Shown: piece after piece, positions 9,530 through 49,955 of the stretch | Layout of the letters: the number at the start of each line of letters is the position of its first letter | Position numbering within the stretch: the first letter of the stretch is position 1 | Source: Kappaphycus alvarezii | Lineage: Eukaryota > Rhodophyta > Florideophyceae > Gigartinales > Solieriaceae | Direction: 5' to 3' | Length of the DNA: 64,000 bases | Assembly (NCBI GenBank): GCA_002205965.3 | Contig: NADL03000740.1 | Coordinates: 1,674,001-1,738,000 of the forward strand | Position numbers and translations under genes: made by a program | Notes under the pieces: model-generated | Seen by the model: only the letters and a program-made list of their open reading frames with translations | What the model was told of the DNA's origin: nothing | Databases searched by the model: none

Positions 9530-11480
9530 ATGGTTCGAGCTCCACCATCTCTGGCAACTCAGTTTAATGTACCGCCACGTGCTCTCGCCACTACAGCAGA
9601 GCCAAGTAAGGCGTATACAACGCCTACTTGCTTGTTACACGGCCAGCGCATCCTAAGCGTTCTCCGCGACCATTATCTTGCTCAGCCAAAGGACACCACC
9701 TTTCTCCCTGTCCTCCATCGTATCCCCCACCACGTATCTCTGTGGCTACTGTTGCACGGCACGTGCGCGGCGTCTATGAGACACCACTGCCGAGCATCAC
9801 CCCCGCATCGGGAGAGTCCACAACCCCTTCTGATGGCCCCGTTTATTGGTCAAGATCCCGTCAGCCCCGAACTCAGTAACAGTTTCCACAAATTTGGTGA
9901 TCCGCATCGATACTGGAACCCTCCCAAACTCGATCCTCCCTCTGATTGCGCTGCTACGCTACATTTTCTGACCAAGCCCGGGCAGGGTCCGATCCATTGC
10001 TGTGGGCTCAATTTCCGCCGAATGGAGACCAAAGCCCCGCTCCGCGCCGACTTCGATGACACAAGAGACCTTTTGTTCCACACATCAAATAGCGAACGGA
10101 GTCAATTTTGGCACGAGAGCCGTTGCCGACGATACCGGCACCCTCTCCAACCTGTATGCCCCAAGCCAATCGTTGCAGCTGACTTGGTTATGCAAAGAAT
10201 GCTTCCAATTGTGTGGACCGACATAGGATGCCTTCTTCTCTACCACACCCAACTCTGGCCCACTTCACGAAATGCTATGTGGTCGTTCCCGACCACCGCT
10301 GTTGGTACCGGTAGCGCGATGATCCCGAGTGCTGATGGAACCCAACAGAGGGACCCATTTGTATGCTCCTTTCCCCCTAGTATCCATCTTCTTGACTGCC
10401 AGCAAAATCCTCTTCAATCAATTGTTCACGGGTGATGGTGGACTCATTCCCGCTTGAAAACGTGCGCAACGCGCTCTAGTTAATCCAGAGCCAAGGCCCT
10501 GCTGTCGGCCTCTATCTGAATATCTGCGAAACACGTACCTCTCGTGTTCACTCCTCCGAAGCCTGCTGTGCCTTCCGTCGCGATTTCCCCCTCCAAAAAT
10601 GCACCGACTAACGTCTTGAACTCCTTGGAACCACTAGGGACCACCACTCTGACGTTCACCCCTTCCTACTCGCTTCCGCCACTGCCAGTATCATCAATCC
10701 AGCCGTCGCCCGAGCTCGTACAGCCCAGTTTTATTTGCCTCTCACTGCTCAACTGTTGGTAAACCATGCTATCTGGCCCACGGGCCCTCCTTGCTTAGTC
10801 AGATTTACTCATTTGCCTTTTCTTGGGTACCGTCCCAGGCTACCGCTCGGAGCTCAGGCCCTTCCGCCCCCAACGTCCTCGCTGCTTCATTCAGTAATAC
10901 CTCCTCAATCCGCAACAGGGTGCAACACGGCGCGATGACCCGGGCCTACCGGGAGGAAGTCGATTGAACCGCAACTCCTACTCTCCCGCAACACAGTGAC
11001 ACTGATATACGTCCCCGCGTTGGCGGAATCGCATTCCGCCATAGCTCTACCACAGCCTTCCTGACTTCCCACCCCACCAACACCACTACCATACCCTCCC
11101 TGTACTCTTACCGGGCCCTCCACTTACTTCCCACCATTGCCGCCGTCGTGTGAAAGTGTTCTGGGACCACGCTGCTAAACTCTGCGTAAGGCTCAATCGC
11201 CACAACTCTTTTCGTAAAGGGCTTGCTTTTCTCGTCATCCACGTTGCCTAGCGTAAATATGACTTTGCGGTAGCGAGACCCCCTTCTTCGTCCGCAGTAC
11301 TGAGTCACGGCCAACATACTTCTCCTGCAGTCCCCTGCCCGTCCCCTATCACTGATTTTCACCCTTCCGCGTGGGACATCACCAACTTATCCCCATTCAA
11401 GTCCATCACACGCAACAAGGCCATCCAACTACATGGGAGCGCAACTGAGGTAGCCCACTGATAAAGTCCGAGACCTCGAG
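9530..11480 (+). mobile_element. LINE-like retrotransposon, decayed, + strand
   Basis: The 301-codon frame 9530-10435 includes, at 10334-10372, SADGTQQRDPFVCSF, which matches the GVQQGDPLGPLLF motif of LINE reverse transcriptases. Just upstream a +1 frame reads KECFQLCGPT, the place of the DxxNAFN(C/S)xD motif. Near 11023-11075 RVGGIAFRHSSTTAFLTS matches the RFGGLGIRxxxxxAxxAxL segment of the thumb or connection region. The N-terminal part is proline-rich and not recognised. The lack of one continuous frame and the loss of the catalytic box indicate a dead copy. It shares orientation and family with the copy at 5.5-7.66 kb. Confidence 0.6.
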
Positions 11481-11640
11481 CGCAAATGACCCGTTGACCC
11501 CTCAATAAAACAATCGGGCCACTATCTCCACTTTACATCATTCCCCAGCCCGTCGCCTTGTGCTCCCTTGGAGCACCCTCCAGAGCCAGAGCAGTCAATT
11601 GATGAGACCATGCCGGCTATCGTGCGCCACTCTTCACATG

Positions 11641-11860
11641 ATGTGGCAGACCGTGCGGTCTGTCACAGGATCTTTCAGCGCCTCTTGTAGCTCTATTTTT
11701 GACGTCTGCAGCCGCTGCAGACGCCATGGAGCAGAGCTACAAGAGAGCCACGGTGATCATCGCCGCGGACCGCACCCAGGGTGCGGTGCAGTTTGGAACG
11801 AATTCGTCTGGCATGGTCAAATTAGGGTTGCAATTCCCAGCGGCGGTTAGCCGCCAAAAG
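11641..11860. other. Cluster of nested perfect hairpins
   Basis: Outer arms CTCTTGTAGCTCT (11682-11694) and AGAGCTACAAGAG (11733-11745) enclose inner arms CGTCTGCAG (11703-11711) and CTGCAGACG (11715-11723). The outer stem is extended by an imperfect match between 11650-11680 and 11750-11776. Directly after it ACCGCACCC and GGGTGCGGT (11769-11787) form a 9-bp stem with a one-base loop, and GGCGG/CCGCC (about 11842-11855) a further one. This could be a fold-back element or a structured RNA; no terminal repeats or target duplications were seen. Confidence 0.75.
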
Positions 11861-33379: not shown

Positions 33380-34100
33380 GTCCCAACGAAAATAATGGAG
33401 AACAACTTTGTCCTACTGAACCTTGAATACCCTTTTGCATTTGAAGGTACAATCGACGCATGGAGGTGATCGACAGAAATTGATATATCAATTTCTTCAA
33501 ACATTTCAAGTGGATCAATTAATGTCGCTAAGGTGTTACTCTCAGTCTTTGGTATTTGTCAGAAGCGCTTGTAGCGCGATGGGCGAATGTAGTATCTTTT
33601 TCAAAATGCGATTCCGAAACGAACAATTGGGCTCGAAATAGTCCGTGGTGTCATCGACATCGGAGATCTCTCCTAATTATTTATCACAACTCATAGAACA
33701 GGCGTTCTGCAGGAATGAATTTTATAAATTCCTCGCGGACAAAGTAATTCACGTAATTGGTCCTGTAAAAGCTGTGGAAGTGCTGTCTTGAACATCAGAT
33801 GCGGCGCAGAAGGTGCTTTCCATCAAGGCTGATATTTTTCTTGGTTTCATTACTACTTAAATGAATAAAAAACATATTAGGGTCCATAACAAAACTGGGT
33901 TCGTGAATTTTCAGACGATATTTACAAGTGATCTGTCACTCCTCTTGTTAAACAAACTTTCATTTGAAGAGCGTTCTGTTCGTGACAGTATTTTGTCGAG
34001 TCTCATTATGTATTTTCGAAGACAGCAGAGCTGCACTATTTTATTTAGTGCTGCGGATATCGAAATTTCTCAAGATATTGAGGTGAAAAGTTGATTCGTT
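33380..34100 (+). other. Unrecognised coding-like stretch on the + strand
   Basis: Frames 33423-33641 and 33861-34094, and the DNA between them, have the amino-acid balance of real protein, for example KFLADKVIHVIGPVKAVEVL near 33730-33790 and IKADIFLGFITT near 33820. No family is recognised. It lies in the AT-rich remnant zone just left of the gypsy insertion and may be another old element or a dead gene. Confidence 0.3.
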
Positions 34101-34350
34101 GATCAAGAAGATCAATATCTACGCTGATTTTTGGAGTTTCGTTCTCCTTCATAATTTGTGATAAATTCACGCCCTCTATTTGATTTTGCAGATAGTTTGC
34201 GGGGTATCAGAATAGAATTCAAATAAGAATAATTCTGACTTGATTGTAAAACATATGGACGGCACGTCGATCTTGGCGAAAAAAGTCTGCACCATTACTA
34301 ATGAAAATAATACTAGAAACATTCCGCCTGATTCGACAATCCGAACTATA

Positions 34351-35043
34351 TGTGGAAAACTGGTCTCCTTTTCGCGTGAGCATACTGTACTTGCTACAGT
34401 CGGGACAGGATTTCCTGTCCAGTTCCACGTGTAGTTGCCACGTTTAATGCCCACATGGAAGACGGCTGGAAATTACTTTTTGTTCCCTTAATTATCACTT
34501 TATTTTATTAATTATTGTTGGACTAATTAGCTGACAGTGCCACAGTAGGTGGCACTGCCACTACTCAGGCTCGCCGGCATTCTGGTCGTCCAACGGTGAA
34601 CGTAAGAACAATCCTCTCGAACCAGACCTTCCTACTCGCCCGAGAGCTAAGTATTTCGAGTCGACTAACGAACTAGGATTCCTAGTTAAGGACACACGGA
34701 AAGCCTAGCGCTGCACGCCGCCACTTAGCTAGTTTCCAATAGCGTGTCCTGAGTAGACATTGCTACCCTTTTGGGCACTCCCGGAGTAGGATTGCCTACC
34801 CTTTTACGCTCGCGAACCACCCTCCCTCCACCCGATTCCTTCCCACCTTGCGCACTAACCACCCGTGAATTACTTCCGGGAAAATCTAGGGCATTGCCCT
34901 ATCTTTTACGAACGCGACCTACCGTCTGCGCTACCCCGCTAGCTACAACTAGCTGCCTAACAACGTCTAGATTGGTCTCCGGAAGAACCTTTGCTTCTAA
35001 AACCCCCACCTCGTGAGTGGAATTGAGGGTCCATTCTACTACA
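34351..35043 (+). repeat. 5' LTR of the gypsy element
   Basis: 693 bases from TGTGG to CTACA, matching 45063-45750. It carries three notable palindromes: GGACAGGA/TCCTGTCC (34403-34420), AACTAGGA/TCCTAGTT (34671-34687) and TAGGGCA/TGCCCTA (34887-34901). A TACTGTAC-type motif is at 34383-34391. Confidence 0.92.
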
Positions 35044-35062
35044 AGTGGTCTCCCAACCTAGA
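35044..35062 (+). other. Likely primer-binding site
   Basis: The sequence just after the 5' LTR is AG followed by TGGTCTCCCAACC. It starts with TGG, which pairs with the CCA end of a tRNA, as primer-binding sites do. The matching tRNA is not identified. Confidence 0.45.
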
Positions 35063-35079
35063 ATAGGACATCATATTCA

Positions 35080-37420
35080 CGCTTTTGCGCCGGCTCACTT
35101 CCCCAACGCGTAACAGAAGGATTCCTTCTGAGTCTGCAGTTGATTTTCGACTTGGATTCTCAAGATGCCTCTTGCGTCAGATGCTACGAGTCGATGTAAG
35201 GCCTCGACTCGGAACGGACGAGGAATTAGTCGTGTGGACTACTCTAGAAATGGAAAGGGATCGCGCGCGTCGCGCGTCCACAAAGACCATGGAGTTCATA
35301 GTCCGAAACAAGAGAGCAGTGCTTTTTTTGGCGAGTCGCAAGCGGGAGTTCCCGCTACAGTAGCTTCGGTCACGCCGGATGTCCAAACTGGCTTCACCCT
35401 AGTTGATGATGTGGAAACGGGTGACGACACCATCCCTGTTGAAGGAGAGCCTGAGGTTCTACCTCAAGAGTTTATCACTCCCCAGCTTCGCCTGGTGTAG
35501 TCATCCCTCGAGCAAATGCTCGAGGAGCAGTTGATGGTAAACCAGCAAGTGCTGGAGGATCGCCTTAAGGAGAAAGATGATGCCTTCAAAACCAAGCTCC
35601 GCGAGAAGATGGTCCCCCTCTCCAAGGAGGAGCGTGTAGTAGCAGATGCTAATCATGTCGGACGGCTCTTAGGAGCCGCCCTGACAGACTCGCCGATCCA
35701 GCAAACGCTCGATTGACTCGAGCGTGAGCTTGAAGAGGAGAGGTGCACGGTAAATCCCTTGCAGGATCAAGTACGTGAGCTCAAACTCCGCACAAGAGCT
35801 TCTCGGGCATCCAGCCGGAGCCCCGTACCGCCAGGTACAAGGGAAAGGCACGATCGTAGCCCTTTCCGCAATAATCGCCGGGGATGTCCCGGACTCCACT
35901 TCCGAATTTGTGGCGAACGTGGACGCGCGCGGAAGGTCCGCAGTGACTCCGCAGAGCGCGTGAACCGCTGGTTCCAGAAGCATCTGGACAAGCAAGCCCG
36001 CAGGGCTGAATCCGATAATTACTCGGAAAATTATGACCAAAGGGAACAGGAAATTCCTGTTCGTCAACGTCCTTGGGTTGGTCCCAAGTTTGCCGGTCTC
36101 ACTGAGATCCACCGAGCCGAGCCAAACTTCGCTCGTGTCGTGACCTATCGCAGGTATCGCCTGCGTAAAACAGAAACAGCAATTGGTGGTACTGTGCTCG
36201 CCGAAACTGGCTATCATTACAAGCGTCTCAAGCATTTGCTTGGCGCGCGCAAATTTGATGCTACTGATCCCATCTCCATCATCCCCTTCATGTCCGCGTA
36301 CAAGAAGTTATGCGATAGCAATAGCGTTAGTGAGGGAGCCACCCTCATCCTGTTACCAGATCTCCTCTCGGGTGAAGCCCGAGAACACTTCGAAGCTAAC
36401 TTCGAATTGGAGAAGAGGGTAGTGGATGATTTCCCTCCTACCCTGGTGTCGTGCAGTTCTTGCAGCGCATGTACGCCACCGATCATACGATCGAGGCGGT
36501 GGTCGAGAACATAGACAACCTCCGGCAAAGCCGGAGGAGACGGAACTAGCATTCGCTAGTCGCTTACCCAAAATGGCGAGGTCCTGTGGCGCGGTGTACA
36601 CCGAGCAGGACCTCATCACGCGCTTTGTAAGGGGATCCTTACCAGACTTGAAGCCCTTGCTTCAAGTTGAGCGTCAAACCGCTCAAATGTCTCGGGATAA
36701 CCGAGAGCCTTTCTCGACTTTGTCGAGAAAGCGGGAGCCATAGGGAGCGCCCAACGCGCCCTTACGCAGAGGCAGACACAGGTGCCAAAGTCGACACGGA
36801 GAGTGAAAGCTCTCTCCGTGGAATCTGTAGACGAGGGACATCCCTCGCAAGAGCGTCGTCGTCAGACCGCTCACAACCAGGGCGACCGTGTGCTCGCCCT
36901 GAATTTTGAGGAGGATACCCCCTCCTCGCGTCAACACGCGACAGCGACAGAGTTTGAATCATGTCACTCAAACATTCGTCAGGATACTCCTGACGCAACG
37001 TTTGCCGTTATGCTGGCACGGAACCCAAGACAATCTGCTTGGGAGCAACCCACCCAGAACCAGAAACCTGGTTGGGTACAATCTGAGGATCAACCCTCAG
37101 ACATTTGTTTCGAGTGCTACCAGCTGGGACATCGCCGTCCCAACTGACCCGCACTTCGTGTGGATCGTAAATGGCAACTACGAAAAGTTGTCCAAGCAAC
37201 AGAAGGAATTCCTCCGTGCGTTGGGAAGAGATCCACTCTTCCTTTCCATGGACGGGAAAGGCCCGTCCTACGTTGTGGAACACCCATCGGCTCCATCGGT
37301 GAGGTCTGAATCACTATCGAGAGAATCCTCGATATCCAAGAATGATGACCGTCAGGTCTCCTTCGCATCAACCGCTAATCCGACGAAGTCGGAAAAATAG
37401 GAGGGGTTTTGCTCATGAGG
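35080..37420 (+). other. Gypsy gag region
   Basis: Several open stretches in one direction encode charged, Arg/Glu-rich sequence, including a segment with LKHLLGARKFDATDPISIIP followed by FMSAYKKLCDSNSV, typical of retrotransposon Gag. A knuckle-like CFECYQLGHRRPN lies near 37.1 kb. Identification rests on its position before protease and RT and on its Gag-like composition. Broken; part of the 34351-45750 fossil. Confidence 0.65.
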
Positions 37421-37439
37421 CCCTTGCGAAACCCCCTCC

Positions 37440-38016
37440 TTATGCGGAACCATCGGGGGTTCCCGACGTTAAGCACCTCAAAGTAGGGATCCTACTTCGG
37501 CTCTTTGGCCTTCCCCGCCACATCACTGTGGAGGAGTATCGAGCCGACACTATCCGCTACTTACCACGCTATAACTATAAATTTATAGCGGAATTTGGGG
37601 CTTCCTTGAAAAGTATGCACGCATACAACACCGTGTTTGACATCGATGCAGGATCAAACTTGGTCAAGGCAGCTTGCTTGCCTAACGAGGTTGTTGCGAA
37701 AGCCAACAGCGACTGAGAGATAGTTAATCTATCTATCGCTTCCAACAATCGGTTAAAGACGATGGTAATCGCAGTATTCACGCTACGCGTAGGGAACCTG
37801 ACATTCTGGCAACCCTTTGTGGTCGTCGAGGAACTCGGTGCTGATGCCATCCTCGGCACCACCTTCATCGACGGGCATGTGGAACTCCTCATAATACGTA
37901 GTCGAGAAGTGGTACTAAGTAGCGGTGCTACGATGCGGATCCACAAGCGACCCGCAGCGAATTCGTTCCGACGGGTTTCGACGGAACCGAATCCGTTCTT
38001 CGAGGAGGTGCCTTAA
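37440..38016 (+). other. Gypsy protease region
   Basis: Contains DIDAGSNLVKAACLP near 37.64 kb and, further on, VVEELGADAILGTTFIDGH near 37.83-37.88 kb. The second phrase matches the ILGxDFL motif that closes retroviral-type aspartic proteases; the first corresponds to the active-site DTGA region. Part of the same fossil. Confidence 0.65.
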
Positions 38017-38399
38017 TTGAAACTCATACGGGTTACGCGTAGGTTTGAACTCCCTCCGCAATCGGAGACATTAGTGGAAGTCAATGCTTCCTTACAATGG
38101 GATCTCTTAATAGAGACGTATCACAGGTTTTATCGTAACTCTCCCAACCTGAGCAATGGCATCATGTCGGCCACGCCGAACACACGCCGTTCGCGGTAAA
38201 GTTTGCGAACTTCGCAAACGTAACGCGTTTCCTGGCCAAAGGCCAGATTGTGGGGTACGGTACGGTTCGGCGATACCCGATACTGTTCTCGAGGTCAACC
38301 TCGAGGGTAAACAAACCGGACAGGAAGAAGTTCCTGTTCTGCTGAAACTCGGGAAACCCGAGGAGATCTTGGGTGTGGACGATGTTGACTTGTACAATC

Positions 38400-39350
38400 T
38401 CACCCCTGAAGTCCAAAAGAAAATATGAGCGATGCTCGTGAAACACGAATCTATGTCGTCAGGTTAGGAAAATTCCGGGTGACTGAACACTGGATCAACT
38501 TGATTCCCGGGTCAGTCTCAGTGAGGTCACATCCCTACCGTGCAGGGCCCACGGCCCGCGAGGTAGAAGCGAAAGAAGTCAAGCGAATGCTCGACGCGAA
38601 CGTAATTGAGCCTGCTCAATCCGAGTTCGCCAGCCCTGTTGTGCTGCTACCCAAACCGGATGGGAGCAAGCGTTTCTTTATAGATTAACGCAATCTCAAC
38701 GCCATCACGGTCAAGGGCAGCTATCCGCTGCCCCGCAGGGATGAATGCCTAGACTCTCTAGGTGAGGCGACGTCATTTACCGCCTTAGATTGTAATTGCG
38801 GCTACTTTCAAATACCTATCCGCGACGCAGATAAGGACAAGACAGCCTTCTTCTGTCAAGGGGGTTGCTTCCGGATTTTACGGATGCCCTTCGGGCTGCG
38901 CAATAGCCCAGCCACGTTCCAGCGCACAGTAGACATCCTACTGGCGCGATACAAGTGGAAAACTTCTTTGGTATACTTGGATGATACTATCATCTTCTCC
39001 AGGTCCACGGAGGCTCACCTCGAACAGGTGGACGAAGTTCGTAGTTGGCGTACTTCGAGCTTCAGGGGCATCCCTGAAACTCAAGAAGTGTACGTGGTTC
39101 ACCACGACGGTGAACTACCTGGGCCATTTAATACGGTCAGGGAAACTCGACGTTGGCTCGAAGAACATCGAAGCGGGGAATGGTTTCAAACCGCCGCGCA
39201 CGCAAACGAAACTGAGGAGCTTCCTCTGTATATGCATTGTGTATCGGAGATTCGTCCTGAACTTTTCGAGAGTGGCGGCGCCACCAACAAACTCTTGATA
39301 AAAAAGGAAATACCTTTCAGTTACTGGAGTTCGACTCCGCGCATATAGAA
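38400..39350 (+). other. Gypsy reverse transcriptase region
   Basis: Characteristic motifs occur in order: VVLLPKPDGSKRFFID near 38.64-38.69 kb, DCNCGYFQIPI near 38.79-38.82 kb, MPFGLRNSPATFQR near 38.88-38.93 kb and the catalytic YLDDTIIFS near 38.98 kb. These are standard Ty3/gypsy RT motifs. Part of the same fossil. Confidence 0.9.
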
Positions 39351-39389
39351 GCACTTGATTCCTTAAAGAAGGCCTCGATAGAGCCGCCA

Positions 39390-39960
39390 GCGTTTAGGTT
39401 GCCTCAACCCAGCCTCCTGTACTCGGTTGATACCGATGCGTGTGATGAACAAGTAGGATGTTCCCTACTTCAGGAAGATGGGGATGGCGTTCGCCATCCC
39501 ATCGGCTACTGGAGCCGTTCACTCTGCCCCGCCGAGCATAACTACACAACGACCGAGAAGCCATGCTTCGCAGTGGTATGGGCAGTACAGCTGTTCCGAC
39601 CTTACCTTGAGCAGGAACACTTCGAGCTGTTCACAGACCACCAGGCATTACGCTGGTTAATGACATCCACCGACACCACCGGTCGGTTGGGTCGTTGAAG
39701 GTTACGCCTCCTTGAGTTCAGATTCTCTTGAGCTACCGCAAGGGAATCAAGAACCAAATAGCAGATGCTATTTCTCGGTTCCATACCGAGGGCGAAGCTA
39801 ACTTCGCCGGAGATTGGGAAGTTCCATGCTTCCTGATCAAGGCTGAGGAAAAACCCTCAGACTCTGAAGAGTCTGACTCTTCCGGAGCAGGCTTGAGCCT
39901 ACTCCTGAATGAAAACGGAAATCCTTTACCCCCTCAGACTTTGTCAACGGGAGGTGAGGT
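39390..39960 (+). other. Gypsy RNase H region
   Basis: LYSVDTDACDEQVGCSL, then HPIGYWSRSL, then FTDHQALRWL match the RNase HI domain that follows gypsy RT, including its DxD, glutamate and DHxAL signatures. The next part (QIADAISRF) is the usual bridge to integrase. Part of the same fossil. Confidence 0.88.
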
Positions 39961-39989
39961 CCAATGACAGGGACATCCCTGTTGGATCC

Positions 39990-41380
39990 AACGTCATTGA
40001 CTTGGATGACATGGATTGCGAAGAACCATTGGACGAGGCCATTGCCTCGCCAGATCCGATTTCGGTCACTGAACCGGTCAGTGAGCTCGAACCGCTCACG
40101 ACGGAGGAGATCCTCCGTGAACAAGAGACGGATCCCTTCTGTCAAGAAGTGAAGGATGCCTTCACAGAACACGAACGTAAAGTCCGTGACTTTACGATAG
40201 ACCAGCGTGGATTGGTCGTTCGCCTCGCGGAGATTGACGATTCAGTGCAGATTTACCTGCCGCGTCCTTGCGACCGCGTGTGCTAATCATTTCTCAGTAT
40301 GCAAAAATGTCCGAGCATCCCGGAGGAACGCGATTGTAAATGACATTGCGTCGTACCTTCTACTCCCAGCATGGCGCTGGACATTTACAACACTGTACGT
40401 CAGTGCAGTAGTTGCGCGAAGGAACGCATCGCGCTTAGAAAGCATGCGAGCTTTCTCAAGTTGTTCCCTGCCACGAAACCTCTTGAGTTCGTCGGCATGG
40501 ACATTCTTGGTCCATTACCAAGGACATCCTTGGGATACCGCTATTTGTTAGTAGTAACAGATATGTTTTCGAAACTCGTTCGAACAGTGCCATTGCGCAG
40601 CGTAACTGCTGTGGCAATCACCAAAGCATTCTGTGAAGAATGGGTTTTTGTATACGGGAGTCCCGTATATCTGCTGTCGACAACGGAGGTCAGTTTGTCA
40701 GCATGTTCTTCCAGATCATATGCTCTGTACTAGGCACGCGTGACTTGTTTACGACGGCCTATCATCCGCAGACCAATGGTCAGATGGAGAGGTTCAATAA
40801 GACAATCCTGTCCGCCTTGCGTCATTTCTGCAGTGAGCATGGCCGAGACTGGGACCAGTTCCACTCTACCGTAACCTATGGTTACAACAATACAGTGCAC
40901 CGGGCAACTGGTCACACGCCATTTGAGATAGTGCTCAGTCGGCCCCAAACCCCCATGCCTTGTTGCAAGCGAGGACCATTGACCTCGGGGAAGTTCACCC
41001 GAGCCAAGTGAAGCGTCGCTTCCATGACACCTTGAGGGCCATGTTGGCAACTTCAAGGAAAAAGTTGAATCAAGCTCAACAAGCGTACAAGCGCGACTAT
41101 GATCGCCGCTTGCGTGTAAGCCCCGAGAACATCTCAGAGGGAGACTTGGTCTATGTGCCCCGAGAAAGAGCGACAAGCGATGAACCTAATCCGCCGCGTC
41201 GCGAGCCCATCGATCATCTCCCGGATCATAAGCTCCGCACAAAAGCCCTGGGTCCGTACCCAGTTGTGAGGGCAACTCCACACACAGTCACGATATTACG
41301 TGATGGTCTCGAAAACACAGTGTCTCGGACCCGCGTAGCGAAAGCGCCGACTCGGGATAACCCAAGTAAACCGTGAGCTG
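39990..41380 (+). other. Gypsy integrase region
   Basis: The zinc-binding HHCC region should lie near 40.25-40.42 kb (CSSCAKERIALRKH). The catalytic core shows FVGMDILGPLPRTSLGYRYL near 40.49-40.54 kb, a DNGGQF-like segment near 40.68 kb and TTAYHPQTNGQMERFN near 40.75-40.80 kb. A basic tail with LRTKALGPYPVVRATPHT (about 41.23-41.29 kb) matches the GPFxVL motif of gypsy integrase C-termini. No chromodomain was seen. Part of the same fossil. Confidence 0.85.
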
Positions 41381-41399
41381 ATAGGCGAGCGGTTCCCAA

Positions 41400-42600
41400 T
41401 CAGGATACTCCTGATTCCCCAGAGGCGACTCAAGGTCCCTCTGATCTTCATACCACTCAGGTACAACCTGAGCCGAACTTTCGTGCGGAAGGTTCAACAG
41501 CGGATGATGTAGAAAATCCTAAACTGGTGGAGGAACCCCCCACCCAGTCATCGGGGCAACAAGAAGCAACGCTTCTTCAACTCGGAAAAGATGACTCTTC
41601 CCCAGATGTGGAGGACACTCCACTTGAAGCAGTGCTTCGAAGGTCGTCGCGACTAGCTAGTGAAGCGACATCCGACCAAATTGGTCCGGGTCAAACCCGT
41701 ACAGATGATGACGAGCTCCCTGAGGCTTCGCAGTCGGGTAACCCTACCGCGGACGAAGGTGGGGAAGTCCTTACCCAAGCTCAAGGCGACGTAGGTCCAT
41801 ATGCGTTTGATAGAATTGTAGGACATGACCTACAAAGCGGACTGTATCGCGTCCGCTAGAAGAACTATTCGCCCAGCGATGACAACTGGGAGCCAAGGTC
41901 ATCCTTGCCCTACAACGTGGTGGTACGTTACTACCGACGTAGGCGGCTCAAGACGCCTCGGTATTACCCAAACACCGAAGAGTAATGGAGGAATCCTCCA
42001 TACCTCTCAAGGAATAACACGTCAGAGAACTGCTAGGTGGGAAATCAAGGAATTCCTTGTGAAAAATGGAATCTTCTACCATGATAACAATGTGGACTCA
42101 AACTAAGCTTGTCCTAACGGAAGGAAAAATTCGGAGTGCGGATTGGAGAGGGGTCTCGGATTAGGTGATCCTAATCGTCGCGCGAGGTCGCTCAACGCTA
42201 CCGATAACCCGAGGACCCCCGGTGGGACAAGGCAATTGTCGTCCCTGCCGAATTCGACGCCATCCGGCCGACATGAGGCGGAGAACCTGGACGGGCTGAT
42301 GCCCGTCGGGAAACGCTTCGTGCGGGTGCGCGTAAGCGAGTGGTGGTCAGGCAACCCTGACCCCATATTCCGCGCAATATTCTACTGCGGGGGAGGGGTC
42401 ATGAGCCCCTCAATAAGCATATGCTTGTTCGCCCTTCATGTACGTATAGTAGATGAGATCATGTGATCAGGAAATCCTGATCCGAAAGATTGTTTTGCAC
42501 TGGCACACAACCTCGAGTTTACTCTCGATTGGGATATCGAGACCCTAGGAGTATCCTACAGTCTCCGGAACATCAAGGAATCCTTTACGTAAGACCATCG
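41400..42600 (+). other. Gypsy post-integrase sequence
   Basis: The 110-codon frame 41527-41859 is acidic (PTQSSGQQEATLLQLGKDDS, then SSRLASEATSDQ). It could be an extended polyprotein tail. After about 42.1 kb no + strand protein is evident. Inverted repeats remain dense. Confidence 0.4.
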
Positions 42601-44330
42601 TGCATTCGCCCGATGGGTGGCCACGAGAGCCCAGGCGCATCCTGGACATGTAAGTCGGAACGTTTCAGCCAAGTGCTGACGCTAGAAGTCCAAGTTCACT
42701 GACAAAAAACATCTTGTCAAAGAGGACGTGGCCCTAGGCCACGCCACAAAGCCCAACAAAAGGTCGCGGTGACCAGGGGCTAAGCGGGCAACCCGCTTCC
42801 ACTTAACAATTTTCGCGGAACCGTCAATAATTACCGATCCGGCGTCCAGGATGACCTGGACATTTAAACCGTTTGTGCGCAAGCCCAAACGCATGACAGG
42901 GATACCCCATTGACAACTTTGTCATACTCTCCCACTAGTTGTTGGGAAGAGTTCATGTAAGCGACGCTTTACCCCGTTTCTTGAGTCTTGATGACCATCA
43001 AGACCACACGGTCGGGTTCCCCTGACCTAACCTATGGTAATACGGCCTGTTATGCCGTTGCGTTTAAGGGCGTCCATAAAAGACGGCCCCAGCGATTTAA
43101 CGCTACAGTACCGGGGATTCTCTCGGCCGCTTCATACTCCACTCGGTAACAACCCCGTTGAGCAGCAGACGGGAAGCTACCGCTTCCAATAGCCTGGCCA
43201 AACGCCCCAGCAATGCCCTGAGGGCGGGACTCCTGCGGCAAATGCCGCAGACTGTCGATGAGGCGCTTACCGCGGTCATCACGTTTGAAGCCGCCGTCCG
43301 CATTTCGTGGGATAAGCCCACCTAGAGCGTTGATTGGGGTCCAAACTGCAGCATTGAACTCGACCCAGTCTCCACCAGCATGGACTGGTTTACACATGTC
43401 CTGTGTTTCAGACAGGACACGGTTCGCAGGAGGAACCTGCGACCAGCGAAGCTGGTCAACGAAGTCCATCAGCGTACTCGCATCTTCGCGATCGCCCTGT
43501 GTCGCATTGGGAAGCACCGCTTCCATACCCATATCGCGTGCGGCATCGACCGTGGCGGGAAGCAGGTAGTATAACCTACATTTGAGAGCCTGGTAAACAA
43601 GCTCGAACACACAGTTCTGAACCCACTCAGACACTGCGATGTTCCACGAGGAATCCTCGTCGTTGGCGTAACCCCCTGCGATCTCCAGACCGCGATAAGA
43701 CAAAAATCAGGGCATCTCTGGCAAGAACCGGTATGGACCTCAACTTTGGGCCACCATACAGGTACGGGCACTTATTTCCCACCCAGCGATGCTGGGTCGT
43801 GGACCTCCGCCTCGCGGTTGTGGTACGTCACGAACACGCCATGGGCGTGACGCATCCTCTATTCGTATTTACGATCGGTATAACCCAGGTAACAGGGTAA
43901 TAATCCCGGTCAGCGCGAATCGTAACGGTACCCGGGACTCCCCGCACGCGCAGTCAAGAGGGTTCTCTCCCTCGCAAAAGAGTAAGTCGGCGGAATAGTA
44001 ATCGTCACTCGACATGTCATCCCTATTTAACGAGGATATCCTCGTTGCATAGGGTGCCTCATTTGCCCACCACGCAAAGGAAATGTCGAGGCCCTCCTCG
44101 ACCGCGAATCGCAGGTCAAAATACTGACCGCGTCGCTGCGCACAGGACCTGAGCCTGTCGATGCGACGCCGGCTCACACTGCCGGCGTCCGTATAAACGC
44201 GTACTTGACAGTCTCTGCTGGTCGTCATCGCACGCGGGATACCCGGTGCTGCGTTGGGCAGGTAACCTGCCCTAGCTGCCGAGGCCTGCTCAGGAAGGAG
44301 ACCGGACATAATGCGCAAAGGAGTGGGATG
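42600..44330 (-). other. Antisense reading frames between integrase and 3' LTR
   Basis: Three minus-strand frames have protein-like composition: 43869-44318 (149 codons; QYFDLRFAVEEGLDISFAWW), 43050-43703 (217 codons; SWNIAVSEWVQNCVFELVYQ) and 42682-42894 (70 codons; VILDAGSVIIDGSAKIVKW). They lie in the 3' spacer of the gypsy element, opposite to gag-pol. Plant Tat/Ogre-lineage gypsy elements are known to carry antisense genes at this place, so this is a plausible accessory gene region. I recognise no domain. The G/C-rich palindromic DNA could open frames by chance. Confidence 0.4.
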
Positions 44331-45049
44331 AAAGGAGCCGTGGAATTAGGTAGAAGCAGGCGACGTGCTGCGAAATACCACCAGGATACCTGGTTAAGTA
44401 CTGCATCAAGCATGGACTTGATACAGAATCCGGCAAGCCCCGACGTCGGGAGTCTACCCGACAGGACAACCGTAAATTTTAGTTAATTTCACGAGTGGTC
44501 GCCTGAATTTGGCCCGGCCAATGCCGAGCGCCACAGGACCACTGATCCATCGGGCCAATCAGTTACGACAGGTAAACCTTGTCAAGGGAGTGTGCACCTT
44601 ATCACACTACCTCCCTCTCTTCACTGGGACACCCCAGTTTTATCGAGTTACAATTTGGAATGCGTGGGGAGATGACTCAATTCCCCCCCCCTTAGACGAC
44701 AGTTTAGTAGCGACTGCTACTACGTCCTCCATGTTAGCTCCGCTAACTTGCATCGACCAGGATTACCTGTGCCAATAATTCGTAAGAGGATGAGGACGAA
44801 CAGCCCCCATACCCCGCCTTGTTTGTCAAGGCTATCCTTGACCAATACATAGCAGACCGTTTCACGGACGACTAGCTACGCTAGTCCGGAACAACCTGTG
44901 GTTGTTTGCCTAGTAGTCGGGCAATCCCGACTTCATAAATTAACGAGGACCTCCTCATTTTTTCCTGGAACCTACGTACCAACTACCCCTGACCAGGTTA
45001 CCTGGTTGTTTTCCTCGTGATTTCTCGCACACCACCCGTTCTGGACGCT

Positions 45050-45060
45050 GGGTGAGGGGG
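45050..45060 (+). other. Polypurine tract
   Basis: GGGTGAGGGGG lies two bases before the 3' LTR, where plus-strand DNA synthesis of LTR elements is primed. Confidence 0.75.
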
Positions 45061-45062
45061 CA

Positions 45063-45750
45063 TGTGGGATCCTTGTCTCCTTTTCGCGCGAGCATACTGT
45101 ACTTCTACAGTAGGAACAAGCTGTCCTGTCCAGTTCCACGTGTAGTTGCCACGTTTTAATGCCCACGTGTAAGGTCGCTGGCAATTACTTCTTTTTTGCC
45201 TTAGTTATCCCCTTATTTTAGTAATTACTGTAGGACCAATTAGCTGACAGTGCCACAGTAGGTGGCATTGCCACTACTCAGGCTCGCCGGCCTTCTGTTC
45301 TTCCAACAGTAAACGCAAGAACAATCCTCTCGAACCCGACCTTCCTACTCGCTCGAGAGCTAGGTATCTCGAGTCGACTAACGAACTAGGATTCCTAGTT
45401 AAGGACGCACGGAAAGCCTAGCGCTACACGTCGCCCTTTAGGTGGTTCCCACTAGCGTGTCCTGAGTAGATATCTCTGCCCTTTTGGGCGCTCCCGGATT
45501 ATGATTGACTACCATTTTACGCTCGCGAACCACCCTCACTCCACCCGATTCCTTCCCCCTTGCGCACTAAACACCTGTGATTTAATTCCGGGAAACCCCA
45601 GGGCGTTTCTCTATCCTTTACGAACGCGACCTACGGTCTGCGCTAACAGCTACAACTAGCTGTCTAGCACTGTCTAGACTGGTCTCTAGAGTAAGCTTTG
45701 CTTCTAAAACCCCCACCTGGTGAGTGGACTGGAGGGTCCATTCTACTACA
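45063..45750 (+). repeat. 3' LTR of the gypsy element
   Basis: 688 bases matching the 5' LTR at roughly seven positions in eight by eye. The AACTAGGA/TCCTAGTT palindrome is kept (45384-45400). The counterparts of two other 5' LTR palindromes are not palindromic here. Confidence 0.92.
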
Positions 45751-46370
45751 CTGTACGAAGCGTGATTCGTAGTCGCGGATCCCTTTTTACGATAGGGAGA
45801 TATTGGTTCGTGTCAAGGTCCCTATCTCCACTGAAATTGACATCTCTAGCATTACAGCAACAGCTAATACTTCATTAGAATCAGGAGGTGAGCTTTTGTC
45901 ACCTCTATGACAATCCCCGCGATTATAGGAGAATTTATTGGACCCTGAATCAGTATTACAACGTAGATTAAGATCTAGAGAAGCACCATTTTGACTGTAG
46001 TTTTGACTTATTTCCTTTCCTTCCTCAATGAAAATTATCATTCTTTGCTTTTTCCCGATGATAATTATGATCTGAATGTACCAAAATTTAAGCGTAGTAG
46101 AGATTTACGAAATGCTTAGTCAATTTACGCGCCATGTTCGGTTTCCTACTCAAAACTGAAGAAATCCATACTGTAGCATGCGTTTAAAGTGTAGTGCATT
46201 ATTGGCTCCCACTACCAAGCCACATCATTAGGGACAAGCTTAAGGTGATCCTCCACTGGTAGGGGTCCTACAGGCATGGATATGCGTGAGCGGCCCATTG
46301 GCGGCTGCTGTACCTTTTAGAGTAGCGAATTATAGATTATATCTGGATCCATATTGGATCCCTGCAACCG
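45751..46370. other. Unassigned DNA right of the gypsy element
   Basis: Coding-like + strand sequence occurs near 45.80-45.90 kb (VKVPISTEIDISSITATANT), with AT-rich DNA after it. No family is recognised. It may be the other side of the sequence into which the gypsy element inserted. Confidence 0.35.
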
Positions 46371-48052: not shown

Positions 48053-48419
48053 TAAAGTACCATAAAGCATACTGCTGGGGCTTGTCATAAACCGCCCAGC
48101 CTCCAATGAGCATCCTCCATGCACACAACGAACATTGGATGATTGGCCATCAAGGAGGTAGCCAGTCAGTGATTAAAGCAATCATGTCTCATTTCCAGAT
48201 TCTCTATCTCAACCTGCTCGACAAGACGAGCATGTTTAACCCATACAACAAAGTACCGAGACAAGCAGCCTCTGGAACTGTTCATATTCCGCAACAAGAA
48301 ATCCAGTCAAATCTTAGTTCACTTGCCGCACGGCAGTTCAAATTATCATTCTTGCAACCCGCGAAAACCCTGCAGTGACAATCTGCAACGCCTGATCTCA
48401 CTACACCCCTCATCGAACA

Positions 48420-49955
48420 ATGCGAACCCTGCATTCTGCCTTTCTCTCCCCTGTCCCGTGCCGCCCTCGCTCCGAATTCCCTGTCAAATGTCTAGCCAGA
48501 TCTGGACGACCCTCTTTTCTCCTTCATCCTTCCCGACGACCCACCATAATCTGCCCTCGAGCTCTTCACGACCCTACTTCCTCCCCAGATCTTGACCACT
48601 CCAACGTTGCCACCGAGGAATCCCGTCTACGTGAACAGCATCTAAATGCCTATTATGAAGCAGATGAGTCCATGTACCAATCAGACCTGACTAACATTTT
48701 CCGCCTCGCAATTCAGAATTTCGTCATCGAATTAGGTGAGTTGCAAATCTCCTTTCGTCGCCTGGTCGGCCTGGATCCGCCACTACGCTACACACTTCCC
48801 GAATGCCTAGATTTCACACTCAGCAATGAGGCCGTTGCAAACAGGGAACGTGAGCGCGATTTTGAACGGGGTCAAGTCCCTGCCAGTCGCCTGGTGCGCG
48901 CCGTATATGCGTTTAGTTGCCAGATGTTAGATTGGCGCTTCGCTGCACGCCCCATTCCTAGGTTTTGGGTTCTTGAAACGGTCGCAAGAATGCCCTACTT
49001 TGCATATTCCAGTTGTTTGCATTTGCTGGCTACATTGGGTTGGTACCGCTCGCCTACTTTGATGAACATGCATCATGCAGAGGAGCTCAATGAGGCATAT
49101 CACCTTGCTGTTATGGAAAGCCTTGGCGGTGACAAGCGCTGGGGGGTAAGTTGAATGCCTTGATATATCCTGTGTTGCAAAGCACACGCCTTGTGCGGCG
49201 TCTAACGTTTTTCATGCAACCATTAATGATCATCTCAATGTTCTAATGTCCTCTCTAGGATCGGTTCATAGCGTTTCATGCGGGCATTGTCTACTACTGG
49301 TAGGTTACCACTTTTCATGACACCTTGTGTTGTTATCCTGGTCAAAGAAGCCTCTTGATTATCGACACGCTTGCAAACCACTTTGCGCTGACCACTGGAT
49401 GTGATTACAAAATAGGTGCCTTGTTCTGCTCTTCTTTATCTCTCCAACTCAGTCGTACCGCTTCTCACAGCTAATTGAAGCTCATGCTGTCGACACGTAC
49501 GCTCAATTTCTAGATGAAAATGAGGAAAAACTTCGCTCTTTGCCCGCCCCCGATGTCGCTTATGAGTATTACAACAACTTCATGTACTACTTTTACGAAT
49601 TCCAGCTTTCATCCCAGGAACAGTCCGGTGATGACATCCGCCGACCTGAAATCAACTCATTGTTTGACGTATTTCAAAACGTGCTTCTAGACGAGGTAAG
49701 CTTTACGTACATTAACTGAGTCCATCAGCTCGTTCAAACGGTGAAGCTAACCCGAATTCGCATTTTCCCTCATAGCTCGAGCACTCAAGAACAATGGAAG
49801 CCTGCACGAATTATATTGAAAGTGGTAAGCCAATTTGGTACAATGGTCGGTGCGTATCTGGAAGCTCTCGGAGGCCAACAATGATTCCGTCGCAGCAACG
49901 ACGAGAATTTTGGAAGAAGTGGAGTCGGTTGCATATTCTGCAAGCAGAAGAATAG
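48420..49955 (+). CDS. PTOX: Plastid terminal oxidase (plastoquinol oxidase), four exons
   Basis: Exons 48420-49145, 49259-49299, 49416-49695 and 49776-49955, joined by GT-AG introns, give a 408-residue protein. It belongs to the alternative-oxidase family of membrane-bound di-iron enzymes that pass electrons from plastoquinol to oxygen in plastids. All six iron ligands are present: E186 (FWVLETVARMPYF), E225 and H228 (EELNEAYHL), E277 (RFSQLIEAHAV), E349 and H352 (DELEHSRTM). The phrases LGGDKRW and YEFQLSS also fit PTOX more than mitochondrial AOX. The first 60 residues are rich in Ser, Arg and Pro, like a transit peptide. The start is the first ATG in frame. Intron 3 splits the last ligand motif exactly between E349 and L350. 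The C-terminal 50 residues are basic and not conserved. The gene is intact. Confidence 0.93.

Follow-up and report, generated by a model that had tools for sequence, protein, structure and literature searches.

A 64,000-nucleotide window of the genome of the red alga Kappaphycus alvarezii (assembly GCA_002205965.3, contig NADL03000740.1, positions 1,674,001 to 1,738,000) contains, at 34351-45750, a decayed copy of a Ty3/gypsy family of long terminal repeat (LTR) retrotransposons that is filled with short, perfect hairpins. Comparison of this copy with its relatives in the same genome leads us to propose that the hairpins, spread over the whole genome of the element, were probably maintained by selection acting on folding as the element replicates. 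The initial annotation of this stretch had offered three origins for its palindromes: selection for folded RNA or DNA, a template-switch process that perfects near-palindromes, and the accumulation of tiny palindromic insertions. Selection on folding fits best, because the subfamilies of the element differ little at synonymous sites within stems, and among copies of one of them, subfamily A, third codon positions in stems decay like the rest.

Hairpin excess

Inverted repeats were counted over 34351-45750 with loops of at most 5 bases and compared with 1000 dinucleotide shuffles. The element holds 122 perfect repeats with arms of at least 6 bases (shuffled mean 14.3, maximum 29), 70 with arms of at least 7 (3.6, maximum 12), 28 with at least 8 (0.9, maximum 6), 12 with at least 9 (0.2, maximum 2) and 1 with at least 10 (0.06, maximum 1). 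The excess reported in the initial annotation is confirmed by the 70 repeats found against 3.6, and all 18 repeats listed there are present, two of them beginning one base earlier with 9-bp arms; the interval to which it was confined, 34351-45060, has 27 with arms of at least 8 and loops of at most 5. Its endpoint, 45060, is actually about the start of the 3' LTR, the true end being 45750.

Hairpin density is well over that of dinucleotide-shuffled and codon-preserving controls and of the flanking DNA. For arms of at least 7, a mild excess is present in the flanks (left 34 kb, 23 versus 12.5; right 18 kb, 15 versus 6.1; 30 shuffles each) and in 20 random 10-kb genome stretches (120 per 200 kb versus 75 shuffled), the latter at 0.6 per kb, one tenth of the 6 per kb of the element. 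The same 200 kb have 46 repeats with arms of at least 8 versus 15 when shuffled, again a mild genome-wide excess. Synonymous-codon shuffling of the reverse transcriptase (RT) piece of copy L062 removes the signal (arms of at least 6, 24 observed versus 3.1 ± 1.6); the 1.48-kb piece was read throughout in a single frame, which is open from base 240 onwards. The mild genome-wide excess is what could be said for chance, composition or an assembly artefact as the source of the hairpins, an explanation left with a negligible probability by the shuffle and codon controls and by recurrence of hairpins in copies on other contigs.

Hairpin coverage (arms of at least 6, loops of at most 8) is 13.5-18.3% in the LTRs, 13.8% in the leader and 20.7-33.9% in gag, pol and the 3' region, against 2-3% in shuffles. 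The drop in density at the ends that had been noted earlier is real in the sense that LTRs and leader are sparser, yet these parts still lie far over the shuffle level.

The geometry of the hairpins is narrowly bounded. In the window copy, with loops of at most 6, arms of exactly 4 bases are at chance (177 versus 174), those of exactly 5 number 76 versus 43.5 expected and those of exactly 7 number 47 versus 2.8, and only arms of 5-9 bp are in excess, with one of 10 and none longer. Beyond the first mismatch, bases pair about as often as expected by chance (0.19-0.35 versus 0.25). Loops are mostly of 1-6 bases with a peak at 3-5, and centres (arms of at least 5) lie on average 33-52 bases apart. 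A fixed codon phase of the centres was considered and rejected, being uneven in L062, where first codon positions pair with each other in 15 of 24 hairpins with arms of at least 6, and inconsistent in gag and the antisense frame described below.

Copies, subfamilies and sister families

The 336-Mb assembly (884 contigs) was searched with a 301-base gag query. Of 62 candidate places 40 were scored, and the gag piece was analyzed in 28 of these, among them the copy in the window. Visual inspection divided them into subfamilies A (the window plus four copies) and B (nine), with 14 copies unassigned. Repeats with arms of at least 7 reach 5.9-10.6 per kb in B, 7.5 in the window, 1.6-3.3 in the other four A copies and 0-7.1 in the unassigned ones, whose extremes of 0 and 7.1 come from two short pieces (277 and 420 bases). 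Within subfamilies, third-position divergence is 0.031-0.048 in B and 0.07-0.17 in A. Many hairpins recur in copies on other contigs and they are densest in B, the subfamily least diverged internally; the trait belongs to the family and decays in copies once they have inserted.

We compared 20 RT pieces, comprising 15 from other gypsy families (39-44% RT identity), two from B copies and three from sister families. The 15 are at or near the shuffle level, the highest being L052 and its near-copy L054 (arms of at least 6, 8 versus 2.8 and 2.6), and the two B copies each have 24 versus 2.4 and 2.7. For the same arm length sister family L065 is raised (11 versus 1.8), and sisters L064 and L066 are raised only for arms of at least 5, roughly twofold. 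Another four sister pieces, L076-L079, give 0 versus 1.6 (L076, with a 358-amino-acid open frame), 4 versus 2.3, 1 versus 1.6 and 5 versus 1.8; the third of these counts belongs to a piece that has 13 versus 5.7 for arms of at least 5. In several of the low sister pieces open frames are short, and hairpins become fewer with decay. The hairpins of L065 sit at other places than those of the A/B family, and an RT tree (15 rows, 117 columns) puts the hairpin-rich rows, which are the window, L062, L063 and L065, in two places with moderate support. Close sister families mostly lack the hairpins, and the trait may be of recent origin. A scan of IMG/VR for relatives of the element found none.

Conservation of stems between subfamilies

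The gag piece, from one genome, carries most of the argument for conservation. Copies are related by descent, so that counts are not independent and the argument is made without p-values. After stems not fixed in their own group were dropped (5 in B, 11 in A), 18 of the 27 gag stems fixed in B are fully paired in A as well, and for the 19 fixed in A the number fully paired in B is 11. Fixed A-B differences fall in 26/384 stem positions (6.8%), 27/96 loop positions (28%) and 157/693 of the rest (23%) when stems are defined on B, and in 21/265, 34/117 and 155/791 when they are defined on A. Third positions paired with non-third positions changed in 3/63 pairs of B stems, compared with 68/157 third sites outside stems.

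For B-defined stems, third positions in pairs of A and B copies differ by 0.210 in stems, 0.525 in loops and 0.438 elsewhere; among A copies the figures are 0.170, 0.072 and 0.169, with no stem protection. Outside stems, codon positions 1, 2 and 3 of the A copies differ about equally (0.137, 0.159 and 0.169), which points to decay, and hence much of the A-B stem figure is decay as well. In the stems of this A set, first positions differ more than the rest (0.202 versus 0.137) and second positions less (0.109 versus 0.159). Comparison of the copies shows stem third positions decaying like other third positions once an element has inserted, and suggests that pairing itself was kept by selection while the element was active.

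The RT and 3' regions agree with gag, the 3' region more weakly. For L062-defined RT stems with arms of at least 6, third positions differ at 13/87 in stems, 11/25 in loops and 101/300 elsewhere, and with arms of at least 5 at 27/132 in stems and 80/238 elsewhere. In the 3' region, where pieces L069 and L072 of five were left out as lying mostly outside homologous sequence, stems defined on L070 with arms of at least 6 differ at 33/179 versus 313/1037 for the rest, and third positions of the antisense frame at 39/104 versus 135/285.

Two-sided changes and mutational origins

Between stems of the window copy and copy L007 there are 11 two-sided changes versus 3.5 by independence, 8 of them paired; between L007 stems and the window, 17 versus 5.3, 8 paired; and between RT stems of the window and L062, 6 versus 1.8, 5 paired, with one hairpin common to the window-L007 set. 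Two-sided changes exceed independence in three of four between-subfamily comparisons, and the window against the four A copies has 9 versus 9.3. Among 11 distinct paired two-sided changes in the sets of window stems, five are transversions, impossible via G-U intermediates. Where third positions pair with each other and the pair has changed, both sides changed with pairing kept in 2/11 cases in one direction and 1/5 in the other.

These changes can also be read without any function. In templated mutation during reverse transcription, snap-back copying of 5-9 bases would make hairpins, and later errors would be overwritten from the other arm. Perfect, length-bounded arms with near-chance pairing beyond them are in keeping with this, as are the two-sided excess and the transversions, and a paper on nematomorph mitochondria argues for conversion on the ground of perfection that is likewise all or none (PMC6649704). 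Conversion predicts, however, that changes of third-third pairs be mostly two-sided, far from the 2/11 and 1/5 found. Private clusters of changes, which cover recent events only, form palindromes at the chance rate (11/176 versus 9.5 expected in the gag piece), so that template switching was rejected as a source of recent changes, and in stems with at least two pairs broken in the other subfamily, changes are no more often confined to one arm than expected (2/9 versus 2.1 expected, a comparison of low power with 16 unfixed stems left out), which gives no support to a one-armed origin of subfamily-specific stems. We consider templated mutation unlikely overall, and with it the template-switch palindromization of the initial annotation; a variant with conversion towards the older arm, in reverse transcription only, could still be accommodated.

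Palindromic insertions fare no better, as most of 17 inspected stems align gap-free to copies that lack them. The exceptions are the hairpin at 36977, with a 23-base insertion in one copy, and those at 35114 and 35341, where distant copies align poorly. The insertion belongs to L002, a copy of subfamily A, and partly duplicates the hairpin. L035, the C585 gag piece, is missing 15 bases inside a hairpin kept by near relatives, as if skipped in copying, and L029 and L035 have scattered one- or two-base gaps, possibly assembly errors.

A bias of mutation alone, in which unpaired bases of complementary DNA (cDNA) mutate faster, for instance through a single-strand deaminase, and paired stretches survive, would account for slow stems and for loops that are G-poor and A-rich on the plus strand. 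It seems very improbable, given that in two counts loops do not clearly outpace other positions (20/89 versus 146/653 and 27/96 versus 157/693). Deaminase-driven loops were rejected, as unpolarized A-B differences outside stems (G/A 37 and C/T 25 of 146) have no strong skew.

Folding and the folding molecule

Folding energy was compared with 10 dinucleotide shuffles for each of a set of 300-base segments sampled from gag, RT and the 3' region. On the plus and minus strands, respectively, the difference is 25.5/18.9% in the gag and 18.7/18.6% in the RT region of the window copy, 26.1/21.7% in L029, 20.6/22.4% in L062 and 15.2/13.9% in L065. Two other gypsy pieces give 2.7/3.8% and -3.6/-4.9%, the flanks 0.6-4.0% and the sister pieces L064, L066 and L076-L079 -1.5 to 6.8%. 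The same script returns 30.1/21.8% for MS2 and 28.0/29.3% for Qbeta, which are plus-strand RNA viruses without a DNA stage.

Either genomic RNA or minus-strand cDNA, or the two together, could be the folding molecule. On the plus strand, loops have many A and few G residues whether they lie in sense or in antisense parts; over 253 hairpins, some of them homologous, A exceeds T with p 0.04 and C exceeds G with p 0.002. Selection on DNA rather than RNA, with hairpins of single-stranded cDNA or cruciforms serving reverse transcription, integration or chromatin, would explain strand-symmetric Watson-Crick stems and a folding excess that is about equal on both strands. We think it quite unlikely, as the hairpins extend over the whole element and not over particular sites, and the loop composition is strand-asymmetric, unlike the prediction of pure double-strand selection.

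Selection on folding during replication has its own difficulties, and the following points count against it. Stems lack the preference for G-U over A-C mismatches that would be expected if plus-strand RNA were selected alone, and folding hardly differs between strands. Two-sided changes between L062 stems and the window are weak (4 versus 2.2, 2 paired). With A-defined stems, third positions paired with non-third positions changed in 11/64, and third-third pairs are broken on one side in 8/27. The 3' contrast shrinks with arms of at least 5, to 75/297 versus 254/870. In comparisons defined on the window copy, stems are lower than the rest even among A copies; stems defined on a decayed copy look too conserved, so these A-A contrasts are biased and the B-defined A-A figure alone is fair. 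L033, with its RT match in an 822-amino-acid open frame, has only 5.9 repeats per kb, the decayed window having more. The six sister pieces other than L065 are low for arms of at least 6, L076 included, and no conservation of L062 stems is seen in comparisons with sister families, which are 34% diverged.

The mismatch argument against RNA is weakened by MS2 and Qbeta, known folded RNAs, which by the same count also lack a clear G-U preference (G-T 9, A-C 10 and G-T 9, A-C 11); a looser count in Qbeta gives G-T 47 versus 30.8 expected. An apparently strong A-C over G-T asymmetry in L007 (22 versus 2) was discarded as the product of a repeat-counted stem, the count once per centre being 7 versus 3.

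Under selection on folding, the replicating single-stranded genome, whether genomic RNA, minus-strand cDNA or both, would fold into a row of small hairpins, with selection removing mutations that disrupt stem pairing. The likeliest benefit, as proposed for folded RNA virus genomes, would be a compact, shielded molecule that silencing machinery, nucleases and pairing partners find hard to reach, with stems that may be too short to resemble double-stranded RNA. More tentatively, we raise the possibility of an LTR retrotransposon lineage in which the entire genome, including both its sense and its antisense genes, has been remodelled into dense perfect mini-hairpins under strong silent-site selection, a folding armour of recent date, perhaps evolved twice, and plausibly a counter-defence against algal small-RNA silencing.

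Comparison with known systems

Ordered structure along the whole genome is known from RNA viruses, and what it serves there is under debate. In the element, sampled folding energy is likewise well under that of shuffles, and paired sites vary less than unpaired ones. In PMC7642675, severe acute respiratory syndrome coronavirus 2 (SARS-CoV-2) is given 657 predicted stem-loops, largely unbranched and serial, throughout its coding sequence, and fold-energy differences of about 15% for this virus and 7.5-10.7% for hepatitis C virus (HCV). The element resembles coronaviruses and HCV in its serial stem-loops in coding sequence, raised folding-energy difference, less variable paired sites and avoidance of long duplexes, and perhaps in pair identities poorly conserved between relatives. 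It differs in being an LTR retrotransposon, in its perfect stems of 5-9 bp with one arm of 10, and in a fold-energy difference of 19-26%, obtained with dinucleotide shuffles, the published values coming from another procedure.

MS2 and Qbeta share with the element a large fold-energy difference, 22-30% in the phages by the same script, a level that the element comes close to, and an excess of inverted repeats. Arms of at least 6 exceed shuffles 3.6- and 4.8-fold in the phages, compared with 8.0-fold in the RT region of the window and 11.7-fold in L062.

In four mitochondrial genomes of Nematomorpha, 110 perfect repeats have been reported that are 15 bp or longer, with a mean of 43 (PMC6649704). 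Like the element, they combine perfect inverted repeats in conserved coding sequence with gain and loss of hairpins; here, arms reach at most 10 bp with one hairpin every few dozen bases, and none of the nematomorph type, with arms of 15 bp or more, is present in the element with loops of at most 5. A literature search, which was not exhaustive, yielded no LTR element described as hairpin-rich throughout, in agreement with the statement in the initial annotation that no such gypsy family was known.

A hairpin-rich retrotransposon beside hairpin-poor relatives in one genome offers a natural comparison under the same host, and its decayed copies serve as a neutral control of a kind that RNA viruses lack. 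Dating by synonymous sites is unreliable in such elements.

Element architecture and the antisense gene

The features of the element are collected in Table 1. Its LTR pair is 87-88% identical (606 columns identical, 81 mismatched, 9 gapped), and a direct LTR pair with TG...CA ends, a short duplication, RT and RNase H, all features of a Ty3/gypsy LTR element, are present; the gypsy type was assigned from Pfam families and domain order. Integrase-like matches sit downstream of RNase H, the order expected of Ty3/gypsy, both below the curated cut-off. The gag-like region includes CFECYQLGHRRPN, a putative CCHC-like knuckle without a Pfam match. Judged by eye, a candidate primer binding site, TGGTCTCCC, lies 2 bases past the 5' LTR and a candidate polypurine tract, GGTGAGGGGG, ahead of the 3' LTR. 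In the example hairpin at 36832, the outer-pair switch involves two changes, synonymous by eye and both at CpG sites.

Table 1. Positions of the element, its parts and example hairpins in the window
Feature	Position	Strand	Basis or remark
Ty3/gypsy-type element, whole	34351-45750	.	decayed copy, frames broken
Target-site duplication, left CTATA	34346-34350		right copy CTGTA at 45751-45755; 4/5 bases identical
5' LTR	34351-35043	+	LTR alignment; TG...CA ends
Leader, 5' LTR to gag	35044-35500	+	hairpin coverage 13.8% vs 2.8% shuffled
Gag-like region, broken frame	35500-37400	+	densest hairpins, 33.9% coverage
Example hairpin, 10-bp arms, loop TTT	36709-36731		shorter or imperfect homologous stems in other copies
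Example hairpin, outer pair C-G here, T-A in subfamily B	36832-36847		sequence comparison
Example hairpin, arms conserved, loops differ in three copy groups	36977-36995		sequence comparison
Reverse transcriptase piece	38689-39348	+	Pfam RVT_1, E 8.5e-21
RNase H piece	39261-39698	+	Pfam RT_RNaseH, E 2.9e-31
Integrase-like pieces, broken frame	40344-41011	+	Pfam rve_3, E 0.002; rve, E 0.053; both sub-cut-off
Antisense frame, broken (43869-44345 + 43050-43706)	43050-44345	-	similar frames in L070, L073
Antisense frame in copy L070	L070:337-1850	+ of L070	similar to 43050-44345 (-)
3' LTR	45063-45750	+	LTR alignment; TG...CA ends

The 3' part, which the initial annotation had called non-coding, carries a conserved predicted gene on the minus strand between pol and the 3' LTR. 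Outside hairpins, L070 and the window differ at 64/289, 49/286 and 135/285 of antisense codon positions 1, 2 and 3, the periodic divergence expected of a protein gene. A Pfam search of the frame gave no match, TRP28 included, and a protein search with the frame of L070 found no homologue. Retand and related plant gypsy elements also have antisense open reading frames between pol and the 3' LTR (PMC11963269). The element differs in lacking TRP28 or any other Pfam match in the frame, and the word "hairpin" is absent from PMC11963269.

Neighboring sequence

A 22-base perfect palindrome lies immediately left of the element, at 33475-33496. Strong inverted repeats with arms of 9, 10 and 9 bases occur outside it at 11021, 11703 and 11769, and a blastn comparison of this cluster (11021-11800) with the element found no similarity. 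On the right, the plus strand encodes an alternative oxidase frame at 48396-49151 (Pfam AOX; best named match from the red alga Gracilaria domingensis, 59%), presumably of the plastid type.

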